Positions 19,723-36,801 of a stretch of 64,000 bases of DNA are shown one piece after another. Each line of letters starts with the position of its first letter. Positions within the stretch are counted from its first letter, which is position 1. A program made the position numbers and the translations under genes. Source of the DNA: Candidatus Deferrimicrobiaceae bacterium (GTDB taxonomy: Bacteria > Desulfobacterota > Deferrimicrobia > Deferrimicrobiales > Deferrimicrobiaceae); contig DASXVV010000014.1 of the NCBI GenBank assembly GCA_036504035.1, positions 124,001 to 188,000 on the forward strand. The letters run 5' to 3'. The notes below the pieces were generated by a model. It made no database searches. It saw only the letters and a program-made list of their open reading frames with translations, and was not told the origin of the DNA.

Positions 19723-21414
19723 TCAGGCGCCGTTTCGGGGAGATTCCTCTGCCGGAAGGTGCCTGCGGATGATGTCGATGTTTTCTCGGGCATAGTCATA
19801 CGAGGGATTCAGGCGGAGAGCCTCCTGGAACAACAGCATCGCCTCGCGGGTCCATCCCTTCCGGGCCTTGATGACGCCCAGGTACGTGAGGGCCACGTGG
19901 CTGAGGGGGCGGAGTTCAAGCGCGCGATTGACATGGACTTCCATCTTGTCGAGATTTCCCCGCCGGAACTCGATCCCCGCCAGGTTGATCCTCGTTTGAG
20001 CGTTGTCATCCCGGATGGCGATGACTTCATTCAGGATCCGCTCGGCTTCCGCGAACGATTCTTTTTCCATGTAGGTAGCCGCGAGCCCGTTCTTCGCATA
20101 AAGGCTTCCCGGGGCATCCGCCACGGCCGTCGACCACATGGCCAGCGAATCACGCCAAACCTGCAAGCGCAGGGCGGTCCCTGCCGCGGCGGCCAGGACC
20201 AGCACCCCGATGACCGCGACCGCCCCTTTGCGGAATGCCATCGATCGTCCTGAAGATGCGGCCTCCTTCCATACCGACGCAACGACAAAGGCCAGGCCCA
20301 GCAGCGGGATGTAAAGATAGCGGTCCGCCATTCGGGCCGGGAACAGGATCGTCACGAGACCGCATACCGGCAACAGCGCGGCGAAGAACCATGCGATTCC
20401 GAAGGAGACCAGCGGGCGACGGCGGGCAAGGAGCAGGGTGGCGACCCCGATGGCGCCGATGCAAAGCCAGGATGCGAGCACGGCGGGATCAGAGAACCCC
20501 GATCTCAGCGGCACATCGCAGAACACCTTCAGGTCGACCGGCGCCAGGGCGTTCCGGATGTAGCCGAGGAGATACGGCCCCGCGCTTGCCGCGCGGACGT
20601 GGAAAGAAACCGGTCCCCAGGCCTCCATCACCAGGACCCGGCTGCGAAGGATCAGGAATGCGATGGATAGCGCGGCGAATGGGAGGAGCGTCTTCGCCGA
20701 CTTTGTGCGGTTGCCGGCCCAGATCAGGTGAAGGATGAGGAGCGGCGGTAGGACCAGTGCGACGATCTTGGACAGAAGCGCCAGGACGAACGAGGCGAGC
20801 GACAGGGCGAGATGCCTGCGATTTCCGGATTCTTCGGCCCGGAGGAATTGCAGAAGCGACAGCAGCATGAACAGGGCGCATAGGATGTCCGCCCGTGCGC
20901 TGATGTAGCCGACCGGCTCCGAATGGGCCGGGTGGACCGAAAAAAGGAGCGTCGCGCCCAGCGCCGCGGAAGGGGCGGCGGTGAGATGCAGGAGTGTCCG
21001 GTAAAGAACGATGCATGTCAGCAGGTGCAGGGCGACGTTCGTCGCGTGGAAACCGGCGGGATTCCCCCCCCAGAGCGCGTAATCGAGCGCAAAGGTGGCC
21101 GTCGTCAGCGGACGGTAGTACGGATTGTCGAATCCGGTGCCCGCCGCATCGCCGGAAAAAAGGAATCGGGGGATATTCCCCAGGTCGTGCAGGTAGGCAT
21201 TCCGGAGGATGAAATCGAAATCGTCCCATACGAACTGGTTCCGGATGCCGATCGAAAAGGTGCCCAGCACGAAGAGGGCGATGATCCAGGGGCGGTAATC
21301 GATCGACAAACTGCCGGGCGCGCGCATCAACACGGGCCCCTCGCAATGCACTGGGCCAAGCGCTGCGCCGGAAACCGGGAGATGACCCGGATGGGCGATG
21401 GGGACAACCTTCAT
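19723..21414 (-). CDS. TMTC-like membrane glycosyltransferase with TPR tail
   Basis: 563 residues. About ten membrane spans occupy residues 35-390. NQFVWDDFDFILRN with its acidic pair in the first periplasmic loop is the hallmark of TMTC/PMT-like GT-C transferases, and PYYRPLTTATFALDYALWG and HPAHSEPVGYISARAD follow. The C-terminal 160 residues are TPR repeats (FAEAERILNEVIAIRDDNA, REAMLLFQEALRLNPSYDYA). It probably transfers a sugar from a lipid carrier to a protein or cell-wall target outside the membrane. An ATG at 21327, ten bases after GAGGGG, may be the true start. A second copy lies directly upstream. Confidence 0.82.
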   Translation of the reverse strand: MKVVPIAHPGHLPVSGAALGPVHCEGPVLMRAPGSLSIDYRPWIIALFVLGTFSIGIRNQFVWDDFDFILRNAYLHDLGNIPRFLFSGDAAGTGFDNPYYRPLTTATFALDYALWGGNPAGFHATNVALHLLTCIVLYRTLLHLTAAPSAALGATLLFSVHPAHSEPVGYISARADILCALFMLLSLLQFLRAEESGNRRHLALSLASFVLALLSKIVALVLPPLLILHLIWAGNRTKSAKTLLPFAALSIAFLILRSRVLVMEAWGPVSFHVRAASAGPYLLGYIRNALAPVDLKVFCDVPLRSGFSDPAVLASWLCIGAIGVATLLLARRRPLVSFGIAWFFAALLPVCGLVTILFPARMADRYLYIPLLGLAFVVASVWKEAASSGRSMAFRKGAVAVIGVLVLAAAAGTALRLQVWRDSLAMWSTAVADAPGSLYAKNGLAATYMEKESFAEAERILNEVIAIRDDNAQTRINLAGIEFRRGNLDKMEVHVNRALELRPLSHVALTYLGVIKARKGWTREAMLLFQEALRLNPSYDYARENIDIIRRHLPAEESPRNGA

Positions 21415-21475: not shown

Positions 21476-23170
21476 TCAACCCAGTTCGTCCTTCGTCTGG
21501 CGCAGGAGCATCTCGAGGTTGATCCGGGCGTCGGTGTAATAGGGATTCAGGCGGATCGCCTCCCTGAACAGAAGGATCGCTTCCTGGTTCCAACCCTTCT
21601 CCGCCTTGACGATCGCCAGAAGATTGAGCGCGATCGGATTGAACGGCTCCAGCTGGAGCGCCCTGAGGGTGTAGCGTTCCGCCGCCTTCAAGTTGGAACG
21701 GCGGAGCTCGATAAGGCACAGGTTGATGTAGGGCGTGGCCCTGTCATTCTCAAGCGTAATGGCCGCTTTGAGCGTTCTTTCGGCCTCGGGCAGATTGCCT
21801 GCGATCCGCAGCGCACAACCGTATGCGTTGATGACATAAGGATTCGACGGGGCTTCCGCCGCAGCGGCTTGCCAGAAAGTCAACTGGTCGTGCCAGGTTT
21901 CCAGCCGCCCTGCGGTCTGAAAGGAGAAGGCCAGGATGCAGGCCACCACGACGGGGAGCAGCGCCGCTTTTCCCCACCGGAATCGGCGCTGGGAGGGTAA
22001 TTTCTCGATCAGGACCGAGACGGCGATGGCCAGCCCGACCAGGGGGATATAGAGGTATCGATCGGCGATCGGGGTCGGGTACAGTTTCATGAAGATTCCG
22101 CACACGGGAACCAGCGCCACGAAGAACCATCCGGCGCCGAATACGACCGCCGGGCAGCGCCGGGCAAGACGAAACAGGACGAATCCGACCGTTAGAAGGA
22201 AGAGCCAGGATGCGACGACGCCCGGCTCCCAAGGGGACTTTGCGGGCGGAAAGTCGTAATAGACGCCGAGATCGACCGGCACGAAGGCATTCTTGATGTA
22301 AATGACAAGGTGGATCCCCGCGTTCGCCACCCGGTCCAGGATGGGGTCGGTCCCCCAGGTTTCCATCTTGAGAACCCAGCTCCTTGCCGCCATGAAGGCC
22401 AGAGCAAGCACACCGAACGGGATCAGGGTTATCCATCGGGACCGGTCGCGACGAAACTGCAGGAGATGAAGCGCCAGCAATGGAATGATCGCCAGGGCGA
22501 CGATCTTGGAGAGGAGCCCCATGGCAAAGGCGGCCAGAGATAGCGCGAGATACCGGTGCTTTTCCGAATCCTCGAAACGGAAATAGGCCAGGCAGGCCGC
22601 GAGCATGAAAAAGGCGCAAAGCAGGTCCGCCCGCGCGCTGATGTACCCGACCGGCTCGGATTGGACCGGATCCACCGCAAAGAGCAACGATGCCGCCAGG
22701 GCGGAGACGTTCCGATGTGTGAAGCTTCGAGCCGTGAAGAACAGGGCGATGGTCGTCGTCAGATGAAAAATGAGGTTCGTCAGGTGGAACCCGGCTGCGC
22801 GCTCTCCCCAGATCGCATAGTCGATTGCGAAGGTGGCCGTGGTCAGCGGACGGTAGTACGGGTTCATGCCGCCGGTGCCCGTCGCATCTCCGGACAGGAA
22901 GAATTTCGGCAGATTGGACAGATCCTGCAGAAACGGATTCCGCACGATGAAGAGGACGTCGTCCCAGACGAAACCGTTGCGGATTGCCCCGAAGAAGGTT
23001 GCCAGGATCGCGATAACCAGAATGGCGATCGACGGCATCGCATTCCGGATGCCGCGATCCCCGGGAGCGCGCGAATCGGCCGCCGCCATGCCCATCAGGC
23101 GGTGGAGACAGGAAGGGCATTCGGGGGAGGGGAAAGGATACGGATCGGGAGAAACGGCCATGATGGGCAC
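21476..23170 (-). CDS. TMTC-like membrane glycosyltransferase with TPR tail, second copy
   Basis: 564 residues, tandem paralogue of the next gene, sharing order and motifs throughout: GFVWDDVLFIVRN, PYYRPLTTATFAIDYAIWG, EPVGYISARADLL and PVCGIF followed by ADRYLYIPLVGLA. TPR repeats close the protein (LPEAERTLKAAITLEND, EAILLFREAIRLNPYYTDA). The first 45 residues are proline-rich and unlike a signal, so translation may begin further in, for instance at MPSIAILVIAI. It is likely a GT-C enzyme using a polyprenyl-linked sugar. The two copies probably arose by duplication and then diverged in the N-terminus and loops. Confidence 0.82.
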   Translation of the reverse strand: MPIMAVSPDPYPFPSPECPSCLHRLMGMAAADSRAPGDRGIRNAMPSIAILVIAILATFFGAIRNGFVWDDVLFIVRNPFLQDLSNLPKFFLSGDATGTGGMNPYYRPLTTATFAIDYAIWGERAAGFHLTNLIFHLTTTIALFFTARSFTHRNVSALAASLLFAVDPVQSEPVGYISARADLLCAFFMLAACLAYFRFEDSEKHRYLALSLAAFAMGLLSKIVALAIIPLLALHLLQFRRDRSRWITLIPFGVLALAFMAARSWVLKMETWGTDPILDRVANAGIHLVIYIKNAFVPVDLGVYYDFPPAKSPWEPGVVASWLFLLTVGFVLFRLARRCPAVVFGAGWFFVALVPVCGIFMKLYPTPIADRYLYIPLVGLAIAVSVLIEKLPSQRRFRWGKAALLPVVVACILAFSFQTAGRLETWHDQLTFWQAAAAEAPSNPYVINAYGCALRIAGNLPEAERTLKAAITLENDRATPYINLCLIELRRSNLKAAERYTLRALQLEPFNPIALNLLAIVKAEKGWNQEAILLFREAIRLNPYYTDARINLEMLLRQTKDELG

Positions 23171-23400: not shown

Positions 23401-25212
23401 ATGAAAATATCCCTTTCATGGTTCGGGACCGATCGGCGGCGTGCCCGCTGGTCCGCCGACCTGCGCGAAGCCGAAGGTGCCCTCCGCGGTCTCTCGGAAA
23501 AGACCGAGTCGGAATTCCTCGGGATCGGCGCGCAGCTCCAGGATTTCCACCACCGGGCCGGCGAGATCACCGGGATGTCCTCCGCCATCGCCGGCATCGT
23601 ATCCGCGGAAGGCGGTCCCGATGGCGTCGGGGCGCTCCAAGGTCTCCTCGACCGAATGGAGGCCTACCTGTCCCATTCCGCGGAGGAAGCCGTCCGTGTC
23701 GCCGCCATCCTTTCCGAAACGGGTGAATTGCTCCGAGGTTTCGACGAACCGCTTGCGGGATTCCGGAAGCTGACCCGAATCCTTCGCATCCTGGGCATTT
23801 CGACCAAGATCGAAAGCGCTCGGCTCGGCGGGGAAGTGGCGTCCGGATTCGAGACTGTCGCGGACCACGTCGAGCGGCTGGCCCGGATGGTCGAGGAGAA
23901 GACCCTCGCGATCGAAGCCCAGAAAGTGTCGCTTGCCAACCTGATCGAGAGCCGCCTCGCATCCGTCCTTGACCTGCAGAGAAACCAGAAGGGGAGAGGG
24001 CAGCAGATTCTCGCCGAGACGCGCGGCAGCATCGCATTCCTCGCATCGACGCGCGGCAAGTGCTCGGAGGCCTCCGGATCGATCGCTTCCCGGTCCGAAG
24101 AGGTCGGCCGGAACATTGCCGAGGTCGTGATGTCGATGCAGTCCCATGACATCACCCGGCAGCAGCTCGAGCACGTCTCCGAGGCGATCGCCGATCTCGC
24201 AAGATCGCCTGAAGGGACAGCTGACGTGTGCCGGCTTCAGTCCGCCCATCTCGCCCACGCCCGGGAGGAACTTCTTTCCGCGGTCGCCCGGATCCAGGAG
24301 AACCTTCGCGGAATCGCCCGGAATGTCGCCGACATGTCGAAGGATGCGAAAGGGCTGTCCGGCATGCTGGACCGGACCGGCCAATCCTTCCTGGTCGACA
24401 TGCAAAAGAAGTTGGGGCACGTGACCGCATCGCTGGGGGAAGCAGCGGATTCCGCGCGGGAGCTCGGCGTCGTCATGGAGACCGTGTCGGGGACGTCGGC
24501 GAACATGATGCGCTTCGTGGCCGATGTCGAGACCTTCGGCTCCGAGATCGAGCTGATCGCGCTCAACGCCGCGATCAAGGCCACCCGTTCCGAAACGCGC
24601 GTCGAAGCCCTGCGCGTCCTGGCGGAATCGATCCAGATGCTCTCCAAGGATGCCCACCGGCATGCCGGCGCCGTCTCGAAAGGGTTGAAGGCGATATCCG
24701 GCCAGACGAATCTGCTCCGGACCGCACCGAGTTCCGAACACGGGGGGGCCGCGGGCGCCGATGCATCCGATCTCGACGAGATCGGGCGGGCCCTTTCCTG
24801 GATCATGGGCCACATGCAGTCGGCCAACGAGACGCTTGAGACGTCCCTCAGACAACTGGACGGAGAGACGGCTTCTCTTTCGGAAGACATCGAGCGGGCC
24901 GTGCTCGGGATCACGGCGCACGAAATGGTGGCCGCAGTGATCGGGGCGGCCTCCGAGACGCTGGACCGGATTGCCGCCGAGGCGGGAAAAGGGCACTCGG
25001 CAGGGATCGATTCCGGCAGCGCCCTGCACCTTCGGGAGCTCGCCGAGCGCTACACCATGGCGCAGGAGCGGGAGGTCCATCAGGCGATGTCGGCAGGCAG
25101 GTCGCCCGCCGCTTCCGCGTGGGCACCGCCGCCCGCCGCATTTGTGCCGTCGGGTCCGAACGACGGGTTGCCGGATCCCGATTCGCTCGGCGACAACGTC
25201 GAGCTTTTCTAG
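23401..25212 (+). CDS. soluble receptor-like chemotaxis protein with CheZ-like motif
   Basis: 603 residues, predicted almost wholly helical with no membrane span. FGSEIELIALNAAIKATRSE at about residues 380-400 resembles the tip of methyl-accepting receptors, but the following GRGFAVVA-type half is replaced. In the middle MQSHDITRQQ puts D250 and Q254 in the D-x3-Q spacing of the CheZ phosphatase motif (QDLTGQ). The last 70 residues are flexible and rich in alanine and proline. It opens the chemotaxis operon, followed by STAS and CheY. It may be a cytoplasmic signalling partner or a CheY phosphatase; both are inferences. The ATG at 23401 is preferred over 23257. Confidence 0.75.
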   Translation: MKISLSWFGTDRRRARWSADLREAEGALRGLSEKTESEFLGIGAQLQDFHHRAGEITGMSSAIAGIVSAEGGPDGVGALQGLLDRMEAYLSHSAEEAVRVAAILSETGELLRGFDEPLAGFRKLTRILRILGISTKIESARLGGEVASGFETVADHVERLARMVEEKTLAIEAQKVSLANLIESRLASVLDLQRNQKGRGQQILAETRGSIAFLASTRGKCSEASGSIASRSEEVGRNIAEVVMSMQSHDITRQQLEHVSEAIADLARSPEGTADVCRLQSAHLAHAREELLSAVARIQENLRGIARNVADMSKDAKGLSGMLDRTGQSFLVDMQKKLGHVTASLGEAADSARELGVVMETVSGTSANMMRFVADVETFGSEIELIALNAAIKATRSETRVEALRVLAESIQMLSKDAHRHAGAVSKGLKAISGQTNLLRTAPSSEHGGAAGADASDLDEIGRALSWIMGHMQSANETLETSLRQLDGETASLSEDIERAVLGITAHEMVAAVIGAASETLDRIAAEAGKGHSAGIDSGSALHLRELAERYTMAQEREVHQAMSAGRSPAASAWAPPPAAFVPSGPNDGLPDPDSLGDNVELF

Positions 25213-25236: not shown

Positions 25237-25569
25237 ATGTCGTATCCCCAGGACGGGACACCGGCGAACGTGACATTCGGCGGCGCCCTCACGATCGGCA
25301 ATGCGGCGGCGCATCGGGAAACGATGCTGGATGCGTTCCGGTCCGGGGGGGATGCGCGCATCCGGATCGAGGCGGCGCCCGAGGCTGATCTGTCCTTCGT
25401 CCAGCTTCTCTGCTCCGCGCACCGGACCTTTGCCGCCGCGGGGCGGGATTTGTCGATCGAGGGGAGTTTGCCCGGTTCGCTTCACCGGGTGGCCGAGGAT
25501 TCGGGAATCGGCCGGTTCAGCTGCGGTTCGAACGACAAGGATTGTGTCTGGAAAAGGGAGGGCGCGTGA
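25237..25569 (+). CDS. STAS-domain protein
   Basis: 110 residues. The pattern FGGALTIGNAAAHRETMLDAF, followed by IRIEAAPEADLSFVQLLCSAH, is that of STAS domains such as anti-anti-sigma factors; the usual phospho-acceptor serine position reads DLSFVQL, with serine present. It ends with a short cysteine-containing tail (CGSNDKDC). STAS genes of this sort are often the second gene of large chemotaxis operons of deltaproteobacteria, but their role there is not known. The stop overlaps the start of cheY. Confidence 0.8.
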   Translation: MSYPQDGTPANVTFGGALTIGNAAAHRETMLDAFRSGGDARIRIEAAPEADLSFVQLLCSAHRTFAAAGRDLSIEGSLPGSLHRVAEDSGIGRFSCGSNDKDCVWKREGA

Positions 25570-25937
25570 TGGGCAAGCGGATTCTGATCGTGGACGACTC
25601 GGCGAGCATGCGGCAGATGGTCGGCTTCACCCTCCGGGGGGCCGGGTACGAGGTGGTCGAGGCGGTGGACGGGCGCGACGGTGTCTCCAAGCTGGGCGGC
25701 GGTCTGTTCAACATGATCCTGACCGACCTGAACATGCCGAACCTCGACGGCCTGGGGCTGATCCGGGCGGTTCGTTCCTCCGCGTCCCACAAGTTCGTCC
25801 CCGTCGTCATGCTGACCACCGAATCGCAGGACGAAAAGAAGCAGGAAGGGAAGGCGGCCGGCGCCACGGGCTGGATCGTCAAGCCTTTCAAGCCGGAGCA
25901 GCTCCTGGCCGTCGCGCGGAAGGTGCTCGGCGGATGA
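25569..25937 (+). CDS. cheY: chemotaxis response regulator CheY
   Basis: 122 residues. The receiver domain shows LIVDDSASMRQMV, the phosphorylation aspartate in ILTDLNMPNLDG, the threonine in MLTTES and the lysine in VKPFKPEQ. It is the likely main output of CheA, which is encoded next with an ATGA overlap. The ATG at 25569 follows GGGAGGG at good spacing; a GTG three bases earlier is possible. It would control the flagellar switch or another motility or surface function; no flagellar genes are in the window. Confidence 0.95.
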   Translation: MGKRILIVDDSASMRQMVGFTLRGAGYEVVEAVDGRDGVSKLGGGLFNMILTDLNMPNLDGLGLIRAVRSSASHKFVPVVMLTTESQDEKKQEGKAAGATGWIVKPFKPEQLLAVARKVLGG

Positions 25938-28087
25938 GCGAGGACCACGCCGCGGTCTTCCGGGAGGAAGCGTTCGAGCTTCTGGGCGAATTGGAGTCGT
26001 CGCTCCTGTCGCTCGAGGAATCGCCGGAGGATTCCGAGATCATCGGGCGCGTTTTCCGAGCCATGCACACGATCAAGGGCTCCGGCGCCATGTTCGGCTT
26101 CGACGCCGTCGCCGCGTTCACGCACGAGGTCGAGACCGTGTTCGACCTCGTGCGCAAGGGGGAGATGGCCGTCACGAAGCCGCTGGTCGACGCCACGCTG
26201 GCCGCGCGCGACCGGATCCGGATCATGCTGGACATTTCCGCGGGCGGGGAAAGCGAGACGGAACGTGCGGAAACGGAGGCGCTCGTCGCACGATTCAGGG
26301 CGATGGTTCCTTCTGCTCCCGGCGTGGCGGAGGAACCCAAGGCGGAGGGGCTCAAGCGGGCGGCGGGGGAGGAAAAGGTTACTGCGGAACCCGCGCCAGA
26401 GCTTGTGACCTATCGCATTCGCTTCCGCCCACCGGAGGACATGTTCCGGCGCGGGAGCAATCCGGTTTCGCTGCTGGCCGAACTCCAGGAACTGGGCGAC
26501 CTTCGGATCGTGGCGATGACCGATGGGATTCCGCCGCTCGAGGTCGTCGACCCGGAAAAATGCTACCTGAGCTGGGACGCGGTCCTCACGACCGGCCGGG
26601 GCGAGAACGCGATCCGGGACGTATTCATCTTCGTCGACGAGCCGGGGGTGCTCACGATCGACGTCATCGATTCCAGCGGGAACCAGCCGTCGGAAGGCGA
26701 CTACAAGAAGCTGGGCGACATCCTGATGGAGCGGGGCGATCTGGTCGAGGAAAAGCTGCGGGCGGCGCTCGGCAAGCAGAAGCGGCTCGGCGAGCTGCTC
26801 GTCGAGTCGGGAATCGTCAGGCCGGGGCAGGTCCGATCGGCGCTGGTCGAGCAGAAGATCGTCAAGGAGCAGCGGGAAAAGCGGCAGGCGGCCGAGAACG
26901 CCGCCAGCGTCCGGGTGCCGGCGGGACGTCTCGACGTGCTCGTCAACCTGGTGGGGGAGCTGGTCACGGTCCAGGCGCGTTTCAGCCAGGCCGCGGCGGA
27001 ACGAAGCGATTCGGAGCTCGTCGCAGTGGCCGAGGAAGTCGAGCGGTTGATCGCCGACCTCCGGGACAACGTGATGAACATCCGGATGCTCCCGATCGGC
27101 ACGTCGTTCGCCAAGTTCCGGCGGTTGCTGCGGGACCTGTCCGCGGAGCTCGGGAAAGAGATCGATCTGGCCACCGAGGGCGAGGATACCGAGCTCGACA
27201 AGACGGTCATCGACAAGCTGAACGATCCGCTCGTCCACATCATCCGCAATAGCATCGATCACGGGATCGAGCTGCCTTCCGTCCGCGAGTCGGCCGGGAA
27301 GCCCCGGCGTGGCACCATCCGTCTGTCCGCGATCCACTCGGGCGCGCACGTCCTCATCCGGATCGAGGACGACGGGGCGGGGCTCGACAAGGAGGCGATC
27401 CGGGCGAAGGCCGCCGAGAAAGGGCTGATCCCGCCGGGCGCGCAGCTGTCCGACAAGGAGCTGTTCAACCTGATCCTCTTGCCCGGCTTTTCCACCGCGA
27501 AGAAGGTCAGCAGCGTTTCGGGCCGCGGCGTCGGGATGGACGTCGTCAAGCAGGCGATCGATGTGCTGCGCGGCACGATCGACATCGCCAGCGTGCGGGG
27601 GCAGGGATCGGTCATCACGATCAAGCTGCCGCTGACGCTCGCCATCATCGACGGGTTCCTCGTGTCGGTCGGCGACGGGTATTTCGTCCTGCCGCTGGCC
27701 TCGGTCTCCGAGTGCGTCGAGCTATCCCATGCCGAAACCGAGGGCGCCCACGGTCGCCACATCGCCAACGTCCGGGGGCAGATCGTTCCCTATATCCGAT
27801 TGCGCGACCGCTTCGCGATCGAAGGGGAACGCCCGCAGATCGAGCACATCGTCATCACCGAGTTCGACGAGACGCGCGTCGGCTTCGTCGTCGACCGCGT
27901 GGTCGGCGAGCACCAGACGGTGATCAAGTCGCTGGGACGAATCTACAGCGGCATCCAGGGCATATCCGGCGCCACGATCCTGGGAGACGGCACCGTCGCA
28001 CTCATTCTCGACATCCAGCGGATCGCCCGGGAGGTCGAGGACGAAGAAGTCGGCCTACCAGACGCCCGCACGATATCCGCAACCTGA
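25934..28087 (+). CDS. cheA: chemotaxis histidine kinase CheA, variant linker
   Basis: 717 residues. P1 (Hpt) has H45 in RAMHTIKGSGAMFGF. In place of an ordinary P2, residues about 155-255 form an unfamiliar domain, followed by helical repeats YKKLGDILMERGDLVEEKL and LGELLVESGIVRPGQV that resemble the GspE/MshE N-terminal domain. Dimerisation (PAGRLDVLVNLVGELV), ATPase (LVHIIRNSIDHGIE, DDGAGLD, GRGVGMDVV) and CheW-like P5 domains follow. It autophosphorylates under receptor control and passes phosphate to CheY and CheB. The altered linker may change how it binds its response regulators. Confidence 0.95.
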   Translation: MSEDHAAVFREEAFELLGELESSLLSLEESPEDSEIIGRVFRAMHTIKGSGAMFGFDAVAAFTHEVETVFDLVRKGEMAVTKPLVDATLAARDRIRIMLDISAGGESETERAETEALVARFRAMVPSAPGVAEEPKAEGLKRAAGEEKVTAEPAPELVTYRIRFRPPEDMFRRGSNPVSLLAELQELGDLRIVAMTDGIPPLEVVDPEKCYLSWDAVLTTGRGENAIRDVFIFVDEPGVLTIDVIDSSGNQPSEGDYKKLGDILMERGDLVEEKLRAALGKQKRLGELLVESGIVRPGQVRSALVEQKIVKEQREKRQAAENAASVRVPAGRLDVLVNLVGELVTVQARFSQAAAERSDSELVAVAEEVERLIADLRDNVMNIRMLPIGTSFAKFRRLLRDLSAELGKEIDLATEGEDTELDKTVIDKLNDPLVHIIRNSIDHGIELPSVRESAGKPRRGTIRLSAIHSGAHVLIRIEDDGAGLDKEAIRAKAAEKGLIPPGAQLSDKELFNLILLPGFSTAKKVSSVSGRGVGMDVVKQAIDVLRGTIDIASVRGQGSVITIKLPLTLAIIDGFLVSVGDGYFVLPLASVSECVELSHAETEGAHGRHIANVRGQIVPYIRLRDRFAIEGERPQIEHIVITEFDETRVGFVVDRVVGEHQTVIKSLGRIYSGIQGISGATILGDGTVALILDIQRIAREVEDEEVGLPDARTISAT

Positions 28088-28123: not shown

Positions 28124-30886
28124 ATGAGATGGTACCTGGACCAGAAGATCGGCACCAAGCTTCTGATGGGCTTCTGCCTGGTGGCGGTGATCGCGGGAGT
28201 GATCGGCTACGTGGGCATCACGAATATCCGGAAGATCGAAGCAGCGGATTCCTCCCTGTACCTGGAGACGACCGTGCCGCTCGGAGAGATCGGTCAGATT
28301 TCGGGATGGTTCCACAGGATGCGAACGAACACGCTTGAATTCATGCTGGCGGACAGCGCGGCGGGCCGCGAGGATGCCAGGAAAAAGATCATGGACAGGC
28401 GTGACGACATCGCCAAGGCCATGGACTCCTTTCCCAAAACGCTCCAGACAGACGAGGGAAAGCAGAGATTCGCCAAGTTCAAGGAAGAGATCCAGGCCTA
28501 CTACAAGGCGCAGGACCAGATCATGTCGCTCTCGCAGGCGGGAAAGATGGCCGAAGCGAAGGCGCTCTTCAATGGCGAGGGGAAACGCGCGCGGACCGCG
28601 GCCCAGGCCGAGATCGACTGGTTCTTCGACATGAAGCTCAAGATCGCAAAGCAGACGGCCGACCAGAATGGCGCCCTTGCGAACAAGGCGGTCAGGTTCG
28701 CCTTGGGGCTGACCGGCATCGGATTCCTCCTGTCGATCGGCCTCGGCCTGTTCATCAGCCGGCTGATCGGCAACCCGGTGCGCGAGATGGCGGAGGCGGC
28801 GGGCCGGATGGCGAAGGGCGACGTGGACGTGTCGATCGCGGCGAAGTCGCGTGACGAGATCGGGCTGCTTGCCGAGGCGTTCCAGGGGATGATCCATAAC
28901 ATCCAGGGGGCTGCTGTGGCCGCCGAGAAGATCGCGGGAGGCAACCTGACGGTCGAAATCGTGGCGAAGTCCGACAAGGACGTCCTCGCCAACAGCCTGA
29001 TCCGGGTCGTCGCCTCGCTGCGTAGCCTCGTGGCCGAATCGGAGCAGCTGACGAAAGCCGCGGTCGAAGGGAAGCTCGACACGCGGGCCGACCTTTCGAA
29101 GTTCCAGGGAGGCTACCAGGAGATCATCGGGGGGGTCAACAAGACGCTGGACGCGGTGATCGGGCCGCTGAACGTTGCGGCCGAATACGTCGAGCGGATC
29201 GCGAAGGGCGACATCCCGCCGAAGATCACCGACACCTACCAAGGCGATTTCAACGAGATCAAGAACAACCTGAACGCATGCATCGACGGCATGGGCGGCC
29301 TCGTCGAAGCCAACGGCATCCTGCAGCGGATGGCGGTGAACGATTACACCAAGAAGGTCGAAGGAAATTATCAGGGCATCTTCGCCGAAGTCGCGAACGC
29401 GACGAACCTGGTGCGCGAGCGGGTGAAGCACGTGGTCGAGATCTGCGAAAACATCGCCGAGGGCAATTTCACGGAGGACCTGATCGCGTGCCGCAAGCTC
29501 GGCAGGCGTTCGGATAACGACAACCTGGTCCCGTCAATCGTGAAGATGATGACGGCGATCGACACGCTCGTCAACGACATGAACCTGCTCGCACAGGCCG
29601 CGGTGGACGGCAAACTCGACAGCCGGGCGGACGCCGGCAAGCATCACGGCGATTACGGCCGCATCGTGAAGGGGATCAACGACACGCTCGACGCGGTCAT
29701 CGGGCCGCTGAATGTCGCGGCAGAGTACGTCGAGCGGATCTCGAAGGGCGACCTGCCGCCGAAGATCAGCGATCAGTACAACGGCGATTTCAACGAGATC
29801 AAAAACAACCTGAACGTCCTGATCGAGTCGATGGATAAGGTGACGAACGTCGCGCAGGAGATCTCGAAGGGCAACCTGATGGTCGACGTCCGGGAGCGGT
29901 CCGGAGAGGACGAGCTGATGAAGGCGATCAAGCAGATGGTTGCCCGGCTGACCGAGGTGGTCGGCGACGTCAAGTCGGCTTCCGACAACGTCGCATCCGG
30001 CAGCCAGAACATGAGCGCGACCTCGGAGCAGATGTCGAAGGGGGCCACGCAGCAGGCGGCCGCAGCCGAGGAAGCGTCCTCCTCGATGGAGCAGATGGCC
30101 TCCAACATCAAGCAGAACGCCGACAACGCGAACCAGACCGAGAAGATCGCGATCAAGGCTTCGGAAGATGCCCGCGAGGGCGGGCAGGCCGTCGCCGAGA
30201 CGGTCAACGCGATGCGCGAGATCGCGACCAAGATCTCGATCATCGAGGAGATCGCGCGGCAGACCAACATGCTGGCGCTGAACGCCGCGATCGAAGCGGC
30301 CCGGGCGGGCGAGCACGGCAAGGGCTTCGCGGTCGTGGCCTCCGAGGTCCGGAAGCTGGCCGAACGCAGTCAGGCGGCGGCGGGCGAGATCAGCACCCTG
30401 TCCTCCTCCAGCGTCGAGGTCGCCGAGAAGGCCGGGACGATGCTGGCCGCGATCATTCCCGACATCCAGAAGACCGCAGAGCTGGTCCAGGAAATCTCGT
30501 CGGCGAGCAACGAGCAGAACAGCGGCGCCGAGCAGATCAACAAGGCGATCCAGCAGCTCGATCAGGTCATCCAGCAAAATGCCGGGGCGGCCGAGGAAAT
30601 GGCCTCCACGGCCGAGGAACTGTCCTCCCAGGCGGAACAGCTGCTCTCCACCATCTCCTTCTTCCGGATCGGCGGGAACGCCGGAACCCGAAGCAATATG
30701 CTGCCCGAGGCGCGACCGGCGTCCAGGGCGATTCCCAGCGGGCACGTCCCGATGAAGGGCATCACCCCGAAGGCGATGCGCCCCAACGGCCATGCAACCC
30801 CGGGAAACGGGGGCGCCAACGGTTTTGCGCTCGACCTCGGCGACGGGGGACACGACAAGCTCGACGCCGAATTCGAACGTTATTAA
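28124..30886 (+). CDS. poly-HAMP methyl-accepting chemotaxis protein
   Basis: 920 residues. Two membrane spans (residues 11-33 and about 191-212) enclose a four-helix-bundle ligand domain. A long chain of HAMP-like modules fills about residues 215-620, including two nearly identical modules 180 residues apart ([19 protein letters not shown] in both). The signalling domain has [19 protein letters not shown], then [14 protein letters not shown]. There is no terminal NWETF-type tail. It is the main receptor of this cluster, and the poly-HAMP chain may pass or damp the signal over a long distance. The ATG follows GGAGAGGAG. Ligand unknown. Confidence 0.95.
29053..29282 (+). repeat. intragenic HAMP-module repeat, copy 1
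   Basis: This stretch of the receptor gene matches 29593-29822 at both DNA and protein level, offset by exactly 540 bases (180 codons). The best-conserved part codes for [19 protein letters not shown] and KGDIPPKI, then [11 protein letters not shown]. It reflects duplication of a two-HAMP unit. Confidence 0.8.
29593..29822 (+). repeat. intragenic HAMP-module repeat, copy 2
   Basis: Second copy of the unit at 29053-29282, with scattered silent changes and a few substitutions (KGDLPPKI for KGDIPPKI). Such near-identical in-frame repeats could recombine and change the receptor by 180 residues. Confidence 0.8.
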
Positions 30887-31419: not shown

Positions 31420-32028
31420 TTGGCATTCACGTACTTCTTCCGCGATTACCACACGCTGAACCACGCCGTATCCTCGGTCGTCCCGTACGCTTCGGGGCGA
31501 CCGAGGATACGGGTCTGGGATGCCGGCTGCGCCCACGGGCCGGAGCCGTACACGCTCGCGATCGCCTTCGCCGAATCGATGGGGCGCTTCGCTTTCCGGA
31601 ACCTCCGGATCGACGCGACCGACCTCGACGGCAGCAACCTGTTCGGGGACATCATCCGGGAAGGCGTCTACCCGCTGGAGGAGCTGCAGCGGATCCCGTC
31701 CGACCTGTTCGGGAAATACTTCGCCGCGGGGCCATCCGAGGGGACGTTCCGGATCTCGGACGAGATCAGGGGACGGCTGTCGTACCGGCGGCACGACCTG
31801 CTGTCGCTTTCCCCGCCGGGCGAGGAGTACAGCCTCGTCCTCTGCAAGAACGTGCTGCTGCACCTGCAGCCCGCCGAACGGATCGAGGTGATCCGGATGT
31901 TCCATCGGGCGCTGGCGCCCGGCGGCTTCTTCGCGACGGAACAGACCCCAAAAATACCGGAAGGGCTCGACGGCTTGTTCGAACAGGTCACGCCCGACGC
32001 GCAGCTCTTCCGGAAACGGCTGTCATGA
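31420..32028 (+). CDS. CheR-like methyltransferase domain without the N-terminal domain
   Basis: 202 residues. Related to the catalytic half of CheR: RVWDAGCAHGPEPYTLAIAF corresponds to the SAM-binding SAGCSTGEEPYTLA, and LVLCKNVLLHLQPAER to the CRNVIIYFD motif. The helical CheR N-terminal domain that recognises receptors is missing, and key positions differ. A normal cheR lies at 35929-36801 in the same operon. Start is a TTG without a good ribosome site, two bases after the cheW stop, so translation may depend on coupling. It could methylate a different target or act only as a SAM sensor. Confidence 0.75.
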   Translation: MAFTYFFRDYHTLNHAVSSVVPYASGRPRIRVWDAGCAHGPEPYTLAIAFAESMGRFAFRNLRIDATDLDGSNLFGDIIREGVYPLEELQRIPSDLFGKYFAAGPSEGTFRISDEIRGRLSYRRHDLLSLSPPGEEYSLVLCKNVLLHLQPAERIEVIRMFHRALAPGGFFATEQTPKIPEGLDGLFEQVTPDAQLFRKRLS

Positions 32029-32618
32029 AAGTCCACCCGCTTCGGTCCAACCCCGCGATTTACAGCTGCAACGCCTATCTCGTGACCGGCGACTGGAAAC
32101 GGATCGAGGATGTGAATACGCTCGTCGACATCGGGACCGACGCCTATGTGCTCGAAGAAATCGGCGCGATACCGACGGGAATCGGAAAAACGCCGGTCGA
32201 ACAGGTGGTGCTGACCCACCATCATTTCGACCACGCGGGGGGGCTTGGCGAGATCCGGGAGCGGTACAACCCGGTCGTCCGGTCCTGGTCCGATCGCCTT
32301 TCCGGCGAATCCGCGCCGCTCGGGGACGGGGAGATGATAAGGCTGGGCGACCGGGAATGCGAGGTCCTCCACGTGCCCGGCCACTCGCAGGATTCCATCT
32401 GCATCTATTGCGAAGCGGAGCGCTTCCTGTTCTCGGGCGATACCCCGGTCCGGGTCTTGTCTCCAGGCGGGAGTTACACCGACCGATACCTCCAGGCGAT
32501 CGAACGTCTGGCCAAGCTCCCGATCGACGTCATCTACCCGGGGCACGATGCGCCCATCACTGGAAACGTATCGGAAATCATCCGGACCACGCTTCGGAAC
32601 GCGACGGCCGGTAACTGA
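32025..32618 (+). CDS. metallo-beta-lactamase-fold protein in the chemotaxis operon
   Basis: 197 residues. The metal motifs are intact: LTHHHFDHAGG (HxHxDH), HVPGHSQDS, FSGDTP and YPGHDAP. Fold and length match small hydrolases of the glyoxalase II type. It overlaps the neighbouring genes on both sides (ATGA, TGATG), so it is a genuine operon member rather than an insertion. MBL-fold di-iron proteins are known as cytoplasmic oxygen sensors in spirochaete chemotaxis, but their metal motif differs; whether this one is an enzyme or a sensor cannot be told from sequence. Confidence 0.85.
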   Translation: MKVHPLRSNPAIYSCNAYLVTGDWKRIEDVNTLVDIGTDAYVLEEIGAIPTGIGKTPVEQVVLTHHHFDHAGGLGEIRERYNPVVRSWSDRLSGESAPLGDGEMIRLGDRECEVLHVPGHSQDSICIYCEAERFLFSGDTPVRVLSPGGSYTDRYLQAIERLAKLPIDVIYPGHDAPITGNVSEIIRTTLRNATAGN

Positions 32619-35530
32619 TGGGGATCATGCCGGCGGCTGGGCCCGTCATCAACCCGGATATCGACTACATCTTATTTTTCAAGGGAGTGTCGTTCGCGTT
32701 CCTGGCGATGGTTTGCTTGATCATTCGGCAGGAAGGCGACCGGCGGCTCCCATGGGAATTCCTGGCGGGATTCGGGTTCCTCCATGCGATCAAGGACCTC
32801 CTTTCGCTGGCGACGCTTCTTCATGCGGATATCCCGTCGTTCCCCGGATTCGTCACGGCATTGCGCGGCGCGTATCTCCTTTCCCTCCTCGAGTTCGGAA
32901 GAGAAGGGCTGCGACGTCGCGGTGTCCGGGTTCCTCCCCGTCAGGCGCATCTCCTGGTGCTGATGGGCGCCATGGCCTACGGTTACTGGGGCGGGCGGCC
33001 CTTCTTAGACAATCGGGTCCACCTGGCGATCGGCATCCCCGCGGCGCTGGCCGTCGCCGCTGCGTTGTTCCCGCTGGGGCCCGCATTCCCCGGGAAGCTG
33101 ATGCTGCGGTTCGCATCGGCCGGGTTCGTCGCCTATGCGCTGCTGCTGCCCGCCTCGGGAGGCGCAGCTTCGTCTCTGATCGACCGCCACATGCTTTCTT
33201 TCGGGGGGGCGATCATCCCGATCGGAATGGTCCAGGGGGGCGTGGTCGTCCTGACGGCCACGATGCTCTGGATCGCCTTCCAGCGCGTGCATGCCGGCAT
33301 TCGATCGGCGACCGGGCGGCGATACGGCATGCTCTTCAGCACGGGCTTCCTCTGCCTGTATGGCCTGATCGTCGTTGCCGGTTATTTCGTCACGACATAC
33401 CTCGGAAACTCCGAGCGGCGTTATCTCGATTCGGAAATACGGTCCCACCTGACGACCATGAACCACCTCATGCGGAAGACCGTCCCCGATGCCGAATCGG
33501 AAGCGCTCATCCGCGCCCGTAAGGATGATCCCCTGCGACCCGCCTGGGGCATCCTGGATGCCTCGGGTTGCACGGTTTTCCCCCCTCCGCCACGCCATCA
33601 CCGTCCCCCCCCGCCGGGCCGGCCCCCGCCCGGACAACCTCCACCCGATTTCCCGAAACCGCTTCCGGGGCACGAGGCATGGTTCAAACCGGATTTCCGC
33701 GAGAAGGCGGGTGAATTGCTCCCCTTTCGGCCGAATGGGGGCGGGGAATACGTTCTGTTCGGTCACGTCTGGCGGGCGGGCCTGATGCCCACCGGGATCG
33801 CCGGTCGCGACCTGCTGGTCCTGCAACCGGCGGAGCGGATCTGGCGCCAACGCGCGATCGGGATCGGAATCACCTTCGGCATCTTCCTGCTGACGTTCGC
33901 GGTCTACGACGCGACGCGACGGTTGTCCTTCGTCCAGATGCGCGCCATCGTGTCCGAAAAGCGGTTCGGATCCCTGTTCGAGCGCGTCCCCGAAGCGGCA
34001 TTCCTCATCGAGGAATCGTCCTGGCGCATTATCGAGGGGAATCCCAACGCCGTCGCGCTGCTCGGATACGAGCGTTCCGAGTTCCCCTCGCTTCGATTGA
34101 CCGACCTCCTGAACGTGAAGGACCACGTCATCGTCGAGTCGTTCCTGTCGACTTTTTCCGAAGGGGCCGCCATCAATCGCGAGCTGACTTTCCTGCGGAA
34201 GGACGGGCTGCAGGTTCCCGTCGAGGTCGTCGGCGGGCGTCTGCGCCATGGGCAGGGCGATGCCGTGCTCCTGCTGGCGCGCGACATCACCGATCGCATC
34301 TCGTGGGAGGCGAACCTGAGGACTGTCTGGGAATCCGCGATCGAATCCTCCCGCATGAAGTCGGAATTCCTGGCCAACATGAGCCACGAGATCAGGACGC
34401 CGATGAACGGCGTGCTGGGGATGCTCGACCTGGTGCTCGACACCTACCTGACGCAGACGCAGCGCGAATACCTCGAGATGTCGAGGGCTTCGGCGGAGAA
34501 CCTGATGTCGCTGATCAACGACGTCCTCGACATCTCCAGGATCGAGGCGGGCCGGATGGAACTCGAAACCGTTCCGTTCTCCGTCGACGAACTGCTGCAA
34601 AGCGCCCTCGGGCCGCTCTATTCGACGGCCAAGGGAAAGGGAATCCGGATGTGCCTCGAGGTCGGGAAGTCGGTTCCGCCCCGGGTATGCGGCGACCCCG
34701 TCCGTCTCCGGCAGGTGCTCATGAACCTTGCCGGAAACGCCGTCAAGTTCACGGAAAACGGGTCCGTCACGGTATCCGTCGAAACGGCGGGTTCCCCCGG
34801 TGCGGGGATGCCGCTCCGGTTCCGGGTGGCCGATACCGGGATCGGAATCCCGAAGGACCGGCAGGAGGCGATCTTCCAGGCATTCACGCAGGTCGACAGC
34901 TCCATCACGCGCAAGTTCGGCGGAAGCGGGCTCGGGCTGAATATCGCGTTTCGCCTGGTCCGGTTGATGGGCGGCGAACTGGCCGTCGAAAGTGTCGAAG
35001 GGGAGGGAAGCGTCTTCCGATTCGACCTGGAAATGGCAAGCGCGGAAGGGGAAGCCCCGGGAGCGAGGCCGCGTCCGCTTGACGGGTCGGGCGATTCGCG
35101 CGGCGGCCGGGATCTGAAGGTCCTCGTCGTCGAGGACAACGCCATCAACCGGGAGCTGGCGAGAATCATGCTCGAGGGAGAGGGGTGGGGCGTGAAGCTG
35201 GCATCGGCCGGTCCCGAGGCAATCGCGCATTTTTCCCGGGAGTCGTTCGACCTGGTGTTGATGGATATCCAGATGCCGGGAATGGACGGGATCGAAGTCA
35301 CCCGCAGGATCAAGAGTGTCGATGCCGGGCGCGGCAGGCATACGCCGGTCGTCGCTCTGACGGCGCATGCCCTGGCGGGCGACAAGGACAGGTTCCTGGC
35401 GTCGGGCCTGGACGGCTACGTCGCCAAGCCGGTTTGCCGGGTGGCGCTCGTCGAGGAAATACGGCGACTGGTTTTCAAACGACCCGAAGGCGCAATAGCG
35501 AATTCGGAATCATACGAAGGAAGGATCTGA
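32618..35530 (+). CDS. hybrid histidine kinase: 7-span sensor, PAS, kinase, receiver
   Basis: 970 residues. Residues 1-260 carry about seven spans. A periplasmic loop follows, with a proline-rich insert (HHRPPPPGRPPPGQPPPD) near residues 325-350. A further span near 410-430, a PAS domain (FGSLFERVPEAAFLIE), HisKA (NMSHEIRTPMNGVLGML), ATPase (NLAGNAVKF, DTGIGIP, GGSGLGLNI) and a receiver domain (LVLMDIQMPGMDG) complete it. It probably feeds phosphate to the single receiver encoded four bases later. Its place inside the che operon suggests that it modulates the same output. Confidence 0.9.
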   Translation: MGIMPAAGPVINPDIDYILFFKGVSFAFLAMVCLIIRQEGDRRLPWEFLAGFGFLHAIKDLLSLATLLHADIPSFPGFVTALRGAYLLSLLEFGREGLRRRGVRVPPRQAHLLVLMGAMAYGYWGGRPFLDNRVHLAIGIPAALAVAAALFPLGPAFPGKLMLRFASAGFVAYALLLPASGGAASSLIDRHMLSFGGAIIPIGMVQGGVVVLTATMLWIAFQRVHAGIRSATGRRYGMLFSTGFLCLYGLIVVAGYFVTTYLGNSERRYLDSEIRSHLTTMNHLMRKTVPDAESEALIRARKDDPLRPAWGILDASGCTVFPPPPRHHRPPPPGRPPPGQPPPDFPKPLPGHEAWFKPDFREKAGELLPFRPNGGGEYVLFGHVWRAGLMPTGIAGRDLLVLQPAERIWRQRAIGIGITFGIFLLTFAVYDATRRLSFVQMRAIVSEKRFGSLFERVPEAAFLIEESSWRIIEGNPNAVALLGYERSEFPSLRLTDLLNVKDHVIVESFLSTFSEGAAINRELTFLRKDGLQVPVEVVGGRLRHGQGDAVLLLARDITDRISWEANLRTVWESAIESSRMKSEFLANMSHEIRTPMNGVLGMLDLVLDTYLTQTQREYLEMSRASAENLMSLINDVLDISRIEAGRMELETVPFSVDELLQSALGPLYSTAKGKGIRMCLEVGKSVPPRVCGDPVRLRQVLMNLAGNAVKFTENGSVTVSVETAGSPGAGMPLRFRVADTGIGIPKDRQEAIFQAFTQVDSSITRKFGGSGLGLNIAFRLVRLMGGELAVESVEGEGSVFRFDLEMASAEGEAPGARPRPLDGSGDSRGGRDLKVLVVEDNAINRELARIMLEGEGWGVKLASAGPEAIAHFSRESFDLVLMDIQMPGMDGIEVTRRIKSVDAGRGRHTPVVALTAHALAGDKDRFLASGLDGYVAKPVCRVALVEEIRRLVFKRPEGAIANSESYEGRI

Positions 35531-35533
35531 AGC

Positions 35534-35932
35534 ATGAGGACGCTGATCGTGGACGACGATTTCATCTCCAGGAAGGTGCTGACGGGGCTTTTGTCCCCGG
35601 TGGCGGATTGCGATGTCGCCATCGACGGAAAGGAGGCCGTTCTCGCCTTCCGGCTCGCGCTGGAGGAGAACCGGACTTACGACCTGCTGTGCATGGACGT
35701 CATGATGCCCAGGCTCGACGGCGTCGGCGCGTTGAAGAATATCCGGGCGATCGAAGCCGAGCATGGCGTCGTCGGGGCCGCTGAGGTCAAGGCGCTCATG
35801 GTGACCGCGTTGGGCGACCCGAAGACGGTCTTCGATGCGTACTACTTGGGCGGCGCGACCTCCTACCTCGTCAAGCCGGTCCGCAGGGAGAAGCTGTTCG
35901 ACGAGCTGCGGGAGTTCGGGCTGATAAAATGA
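35534..35932 (+). CDS. CheY-like response regulator
   Basis: 132 residues, receiver domain only: LIVDDDFISRKVL, the phospho-acceptor in CMDVMMPRLDG, MVTALGD and LVKPVRREKL. An extended loop (EAEHGVVGAAEVKA) separates helix 3 and strand 4, a feature of receivers that work with hybrid kinases. It overlaps cheR by four bases. It may be a second CheY, or a phosphate sink that removes phosphate from CheA, since no CheZ, CheC or CheX gene is present. Confidence 0.93.
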   Translation: MRTLIVDDDFISRKVLTGLLSPVADCDVAIDGKEAVLAFRLALEENRTYDLLCMDVMMPRLDGVGALKNIRAIEAEHGVVGAAEVKALMVTALGDPKTVFDAYYLGGATSYLVKPVRREKLFDELREFGLIK

Positions 35933-36797
35933 GCAATCGGGAAGAAGCCGAGGCGTTGCCCGATGTCGGGCTCAGGATGACGGAGTCCGACTTCCGGAAG
36001 TTGAGCGCGTTCATCCACCAGGTGTGCGGAATCTCCCTCTCCGACCAGAAGCGGACGATGCTCGAATCGCGCCTGCAGAAACGGCTGCGGGCGCTCGGGA
36101 TGGCGTCGTTCCGCGAGTACTGCGCCCACGTTACCTCGGATGCGGAGGACGAATCCGAACGGATCCGGATGATCGACCTGGTGACGACCAACAAGACCGA
36201 TTTCTTCCGCGAGGCCAACCATCTGCATTATCTGGTCGACAAGGCCTTGCCGCCGGCGGTTGCGGCCGGATGGGGGACTTCCAGGCCGCTGTCCGTGTGG
36301 AGCGCAGGCTGCTCGACCGGAGAGGAGCCCTACACGCTGGCGATGGTGCTCTCCGAATTTGCGGAGAGCGTCCCCGGATTCCGGTTCGACATCCTGGGGA
36401 CCGATATCTCCACCCGGGTGCTCGAAGCGGCCCGCCGGGCCGTCTACGATTCCGACAAGATCGCGCCGGTTCCGATGCCGATCCGGCGGAAATATCTGCT
36501 GCGGTCCCGGGATCGGGAAAGCGGGGCGGTCCGGATCGTCCCGGAGCTGCGGTCGCTTGTTCGTTTCCGGCGGCTCAATTTCCTCGAAAGCGATTTCGGG
36601 CTTCGGGAGCCGATGGACGTGGTCTTCTGCAGGAACGTCATCATCTATTTCGACAAGCCGACCCAGGAAACGATTCTTTGCCGGATCGCGCGTCACGTGA
36701 CCCCGGGCGGCTACGTCTTCATGGGGCATTCCGAAACCCTGTTCGGACTGCGCGTCCCGCTGGTCCAGGTCGCGCCGACCGTTTATCGGAAGCAGGC

Positions 36798-36801
<4 letters not shown>
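35929..36801 (+). CDS. cheR: chemotaxis protein methyltransferase CheR
   Basis: 290 residues. Both CheR domains are present: the N-terminal helical domain (FRKLSAFIHQVCGISLSDQK) and the SAM-dependent domain with VWSAGCSTGEEPYTLAMVL and VFCRNVIIYFDK. It methylates glutamates on receptor helices to adapt the response. Overlaps the preceding receiver and the following cheD by four bases each. The C-terminus has no TPR extension. Confidence 0.95.

Follow-up and report, generated by a model that had tools for sequence, protein, structure and literature searches.

A probable CheZ-type phosphatase of phospho-CheY on a chemoreceptor scaffold in a Candidatus Deferrimicrobiaceae bacterium

The gene located at positions 23401-25212 (plus strand) encodes a 603-residue helical protein, hereafter X, in which translation has revealed a tandem-duplicated receptor-type hairpin and a CheZ-like motif. 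X is likely to be a CheZ-type phosphatase of phosphorylated CheY (CheY~P) carried on a chemoreceptor scaffold, and it probably serves as a built-in off-switch for bacteria that have been reported without CheZ. An earlier note on this DNA had proposed that X may be a phosphatase that arose from a receptor scaffold or was fused to one, and this proposal is the best fit to an invariant D-x3-Q motif, an in-register match to the CheZ profile, a CheZ-like tail, with CheZ-like spacing, in the relatives, and a gene adjacent to cheY in clusters that lack known phosphatases. Positions correspond to the window, that is, the whole stretch of 64,000 nucleotides analysed (contig DASXVV010000014.1, positions 124,001 to 188,000), unless another locus is named.

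The homology of X to the signalling domain of methyl-accepting chemotaxis proteins (MCP; PF00015, MCPsignal) was found with 39.2 bits, above the cut-off of 34.6, with more than one stretch matched and the best one at residues 130-248. The profile of the X family also matched solved receptor cytoplasmic domains (e.g. 2ch7, E 2.3e-36), and MCPsignal was matched in all 35 family members scanned. When both units of X were compared with hhalign, a value of 98.7% over 228 columns was obtained; judged by these profiles, X is composed of two receptor-type hairpins in one chain that originated by tandem duplication. The CheZ-like motif is held by unit 1, and the equivalent site is degenerate in unit 2, with E508 in place of the D and A512 in place of the Q in the counterpart HEMVAA identified by the alignment of the unit profiles (residues 507-512; 24919-24936, plus strand). 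The AlphaFold2 model of X, obtained from a three-sequence alignment, was all-helical (pLDDT 72, pTM 0.48), with helix breaks at residues 143-144 and 397-400 and disorder from residue 562. The best structural match of this three-sequence model was a designed single-chain four-helix bundle (Z 19.6, model residues 20-528), which fits a single-chain pseudo-dimer without proving one. CheZ was absent among the matches listed in these structure searches, and receptors appeared among generic helical bundles; the searches do not discriminate.

Relatives of X were found in the same genus (61%), in an uncultured Geobacter metagenome-assembled genome (MAG; 38%) and, more distantly, in Gemmobacter. Matches to the X profile were present in 63 of the 345 genomes of the phylum sampled, some of the weak ones being ordinary receptors. 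The analysed set included 42 long members (mostly 600-670 residues) and 14 short members (mostly 410-490 residues), which were aligned separately for the conservation counts. In the short members there is a single unit, the receptor tip is intact, the N-terminus has a hydrophobic segment and the C-terminal elements are as in X; their NAAIEAAR sequence is followed by the motif (FQDITRQ) 113-117 residues downstream. The pattern D-x2-[RT]-Q was used as member filter, and among matches with E < 1e-20 it dropped one protein (L073), which keeps the D and the Q as D-RMS-Q. A second search, made within the Gemmobacter order, yielded 12 matches with E < 1e-20, chosen by profile score alone without the motif filter. 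No relative was found in the plasmid search, and no description of the family in the open literature searched, outside which most subscription journals lie.

The earlier note had identified in X the sequence MQSHDITRQQ with D250 and Q254, which has been confirmed by translation and begins at M246. The putative catalytic motif, as delimited by conservation and by hhalign alignment to CheZ, comprises residues 247-259 (QSHDITRQQLEHV; 24139-24177, plus strand), with the codons of D250 at 24148-24150 and Q254 at 24160-24162. D-x3-Q alone is at chance in a single sequence (1.0 expected from the composition of X and two observed, at D250 and D324), and therefore the weight of the observation rests on the relatives; the wider CheZ-like pattern [FHQSY][QH]D[ILMV][TSAV]xQ was found in 17 of 20000 shuffles. 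Just seven columns are invariant among the 42 long members (Q247, D250, R253, Q254, N389, M553 and F603), and the first four, identical in every long relative, fall inside the motif. M553 belongs to another conserved element, RYTMxxERxxH (residues 550-560; 25048-25080, plus strand), recognized in the long relatives, where Y551, T552, R557 and H560 are each kept in 41 of 42. The D and the Q are present in all 14 short relatives, in the context QFQDxxRQ with R or T before the Q, and in all 12 alphaproteobacterial relatives of the second search, in contexts such as QIGDSTRQR. Burial of D250 and Q254 inside a coiled coil, named in the earlier note as an outcome that would refute its proposal, was not what the helical wheel analysis indicated: the angle between these residues and the hydrophobic face is 112-171 degrees (102-170 in CheZ), the hydropathy around the motif has equal phase in X and CheZ, and the D and Q are on the exposed face of both.

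A receptor-like tip was located in each unit. The tip of unit 1 (residues about 128-151, LRILGISTKIESARLGGEVASGF; 23782-23853, plus strand) was assigned from the best MCPsignal stretch and the predicted helix break at 143-144, and its E138 and F150 are conserved in 40 of the 42 long relatives. This tip is absent from the earlier note, as are the internal duplication, the conserved C-terminal tail and the STAS gene that separates X from cheY. The tip of unit 2 (residues 382-402, EIELIALNAAIKATRSETRVE; 24544-24606, plus strand), recognized from MCPsignal, conservation and the model, is degenerate after LNAAIKATR (residues 388-396), as had been proposed from the sequence, with E398 where 41 of 42 long relatives have G and V401 where 38 of 42 have G. 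The E and R of NAAIEAAR together with a G-x2-G-x-G turn, taken as the mark of an intact tip, were not found in X (NAAIKATRSETRV) and are intact in the short relatives only; in the long forms this E and R are variable and the CheZ-like motif is 100% conserved. X and the MCP signalling domain share a homologous helical hairpin, with the tip intact in the short relatives, but in the long forms neither HAMP nor ligand domains were found by Pfam scans, the tips are degenerate, a CheZ-like catalytic helix is carried and the tail has not the form of the pentapeptide bound by CheR/CheB. X is considered homologous to receptors and, because the tip fails, is probably not a working receptor.

When the motif region of X was compared with CheZ proteins of the same phylum, collected with PF04344, hhalign gave a profile-profile match of 94.2% (E 1.2e-7, 62 columns) with the D and Q in register, and the short forms also gave 94.2%. 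Values were 2.8% for unit 2 of X, which has lost the motif, and 0.7% for ordinary receptors used as control, with at most 0.5% in 60 runs with column-shuffled CheZ alignments and 0.5% with reversed CheZ. The match was 91.7% with the D and Q masked and 17% with nine motif columns masked, the register being kept, and it reached 37.8% against the three highest-scoring canonical CheZ alone, the strongest match being to CheZ of the same phylum. Both common descent (fusion) and convergence could explain this relatedness, since the masked value of 17% is indecisive. X itself had no match to Pfam CheZ up to E 10, and CheZ was not among the matches listed in a PDB sequence-profile search with the family profile. 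In the scan of 35 members Pfam CheZ was the second most frequent family (20 members, best E 6.5e-5), and the short relatives inspected scored 15-20 bits, below the gathering cut-off of 30.7 bits.

In the AXXFQ motif of CheZ, FQ stands directly before DxxxQ (PMC7750401); the corresponding residues are QFQD in the short forms (F in 13 and Q in 14 of 14), mostly FHD in the long ones and SHD in X. X resembles CheZ in its D-x3-Q, which has an equal helix context ([FS][QH]D[IL][TS]xQ) and an equal exposed face, in a C-terminal linker with an acidic-hydrophobic tail ending in F (as in most CheZ), in its gene adjoining cheY and, for the short forms, in the motif-to-tail spacing. It differs in the scaffold, which is the signalling hairpin of receptors and is present twice in the long forms, in the R that precedes the catalytic Q (a position with G or other residues in CheZ), in the single active-type copy of the motif per chain of the long forms and in scores under the Pfam cut-off. 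As the Pfam score is not reached and the motif context and layout are those of CheZ, X has been filed as CheZ-like in function and not as CheZ. The reaction of X on CheY~P would probably be that of the CheC/CheX/FliY phosphatases, which insert an amide side chain and an acidic residue into the receiver (PMC3035606), but these have another fold and motif, and no match to the CheC/CheX domains (PF04509, PF13690) was found in X.

Long PF04344 CheZ proteins with a central insert were considered as intermediates bearing a receptor tip and were rejected, the insert being a different domain. These CheZ proteins of the same phylum (500-690 residues) have their N-terminal and catalytic parts separated by a large insert, in which a YELCTNExVKxHI segment is conserved, and examples are L112 (4389-6455), L113 (4603-6288), L116 (4670-6280), L118 (4714-6387) and similar ones.

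CheZ has a flexible linker, and most of its affinity for CheY~P comes from a helix at the C-terminus (PMC7750401; PMC1447658). X ends in a disordered linker (residues about 562-596) and the tail GDNVELF (597-603), a candidate CheY-binding peptide delimited by pLDDT and conservation (25084-25209, plus strand); the pLDDT was under 50 over residues 562-603. The terminal F is kept in 56 of 56 members and N599 in 41 of 42 long relatives. The tails of alphaproteobacterial relatives (DDLDDILF, DDLADIFF and similar sequences) are close to those of CheZ, for example VDDLLxxLGF. The catalytic Q and the C-terminus are separated by 73-84 residues in 13 of the 14 short forms (107 in the other one) and 64-91 in CheZ. 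The DNVELF end of X also resembles the receptor pentapeptide tails EFERY and EFEKF of neighbouring MCPs. The pentapeptide bound by CheR/CheB, which is optional among MCPs, has the form x-[HFYW]-x2-[HFYW], and NVELF has V at position 2; nearly all delta-type members have V or I there, and most alphaproteobacterial ones have D or A. The tail could derive from a receptor pentapeptide, and the lack of an aromatic residue at position 2 argues against this origin.

Downstream of X, a gene for a STAS-domain protein (25237-25569, plus strand; STAS_2, 31.1 bits), whose gene order is kept in most related clusters, precedes cheY (25569-25937, plus strand; Response_reg, 87.6 bits), which encodes the proposed substrate of X, and cheA (25934-28087, plus strand; Hpt, H-kinase_dim, HATPase_c and CheW domains). 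The stand-alone STAS protein might regulate X or CheA. The gene of X adjoins cheY, either directly or across the STAS gene, in 51 of 56 loci, and in the order of Gemmobacter it usually closes a cheY-cheA-cheW-mcp-cheW-cheR-cheB operon. CheA contains between its Hpt and dimerisation domains an MshEN-like pair of c-di-GMP-binding motifs (KLGDILMERGDLVEEKLRAAL and RLGELLVESGIVRPGQVRSAL), located at about residues 258-306 of the 716-residue stretch scanned (NCBIfam NF053729, 38.6 versus 38), and at least one such motif was detected with a regular expression in 30 of 46 CheA proteins of related clusters, a direct c-di-GMP input to CheA being possible from these motifs. Other genes in the window encode a 920-residue receptor with three HAMP_2 and two HAMP matches and an EFERY-type pentapeptide end (28124-30886), a short CheR of 202 residues with a match to the SAM-binding domain only (31420-32028), a longer CheR (35929-36801) and, upstream of X on the minus strand, two tandem paralogues of about 563 residues (19723-21414 and 21476-23170), which are hydrophobic and have apparent C-terminal TPR-like repeats by eye.

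The earlier note had stated that no known CheY phosphatase gene is present in the che block. This holds for the che block of the window, which lacks CheZ, CheC and CheX, but it does not extend to the genome, which has no CheZ and no CheC and carries CheX on contig C9: at C9:418387 there are one clear CheX and a weak CheX-like stretch, 47 kb from fliM/fliN. In that region (L001) a CheX gene (1369-1860) is followed by the gene of a CheX-like protein (1873-2853) in which the C-terminal domain is apparently receiver-like and by a CheY gene. By coordinates, neither CheZ nor CheC was found within about 10 kb of X, some contigs ending earlier, and CheX was found within 10 kb once (G354). Two genomes with X, G148 and the Gemmobacter genome G357, had no match to CheZ, CheX or CheC. 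A report of 2008 described Geobacter as lacking cheZ and as requiring 'a CheZ-independent signaling mechanism' (PMC2577667), and the uncultured Geobacter MAG has X beside cheY-cheA and no CheZ. Mutual exclusion of X and CheZ was also considered at the genome level and it fails, as about half of the genomes with X carry CheZ elsewhere. Given the CheX of the window genome and these CheZ genes, X is not the sole phosphatase there; it probably acts as phosphatase for its own cluster and not as the only one in the cell.

Other explanations have been weighed against a phosphatase. X may be a receptor-like protein of the array or scaffold type, divergent and catalytically silent, in which the D-x3-Q helix is structural or serves for protein docking; the MCPsignal match in 35 of 35 members, the receptor structure match (E 2.3e-36) and the intact tip of the short relatives are in its favour, but the tip has decayed in the long forms while the motif is 100% conserved, and this motif matches CheZ in register, is on the exposed face as catalysis needs and has a tail at a CheZ-like distance, which makes a silent scaffold unlikely. 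Somewhat less likely still, X would be a sensor or sink that uses its motif and tail to bind CheY~P but does not hydrolyse it, or would act on another response regulator of the cluster (CheB, or the receiver of the hybrid kinase at 32618-35530). Several receiver domains are indeed encoded in the cluster of the window and the STAS protein stands between X and cheY; against this, CheY is the most constant neighbour across the 56 loci, and catalysis is favoured by the retention of the acidic residue together with the glutamine. The H-D-x3-Q spacing of HDITRQQ also recalls the HDxxxQ of a histidine-kinase-type box (HisKA_3-like) with H249 as phosphoacceptor. This assignment is very improbable, as the position of H249 is H in 32 of the 42 long relatives, Q in nine and G in one, and Q in all 14 short ones, and no ATPase domain is present in X.

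In CheZ, Gln147 enters the receiver active site and orients a water molecule, and the lysine of this site is paired with an acidic residue (PMC3035606). If X is a CheZ-type phosphatase, Q254 would similarly position the attacking water and D250 would pair with the active-site lysine of CheY. The two hairpins would pack as a single-chain four-helix bundle, a pseudo-dimer replacing the CheZ homodimer, and the C-terminal tail would capture CheY~P. By sequence and helical wheel, the one invariant D-x3-Q belongs to the descending helix of hairpin 1, where it faces outwards. It is plausible that the short relatives also use their intact tip to tether the phosphatase to the CheA/CheW array, but array binding of X and the other long forms is doubtful because their tips are degenerate. 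More tentatively, X and its relatives may be receptor-phosphatase chimeras, in which CheY~P phosphatase activity is gated by the state of the receptor-like hairpin or of the array; if so, receptor-type signalling inside the array would control the formation of CheY~P as well as its removal.

Many deltaproteobacteria have been recorded without CheZ, with signal termination left open (PMC2577667). If the assignment of X as a CheZ-type phosphatase is true, this missing step would be filled by a widespread cheY-linked family whose receptor scaffold bears a CheZ-like site. The family would illustrate how a phosphatase can be accommodated on a receptor hairpin, and the matches to the MCP signalling domain in such genomes would include probable phosphatases.
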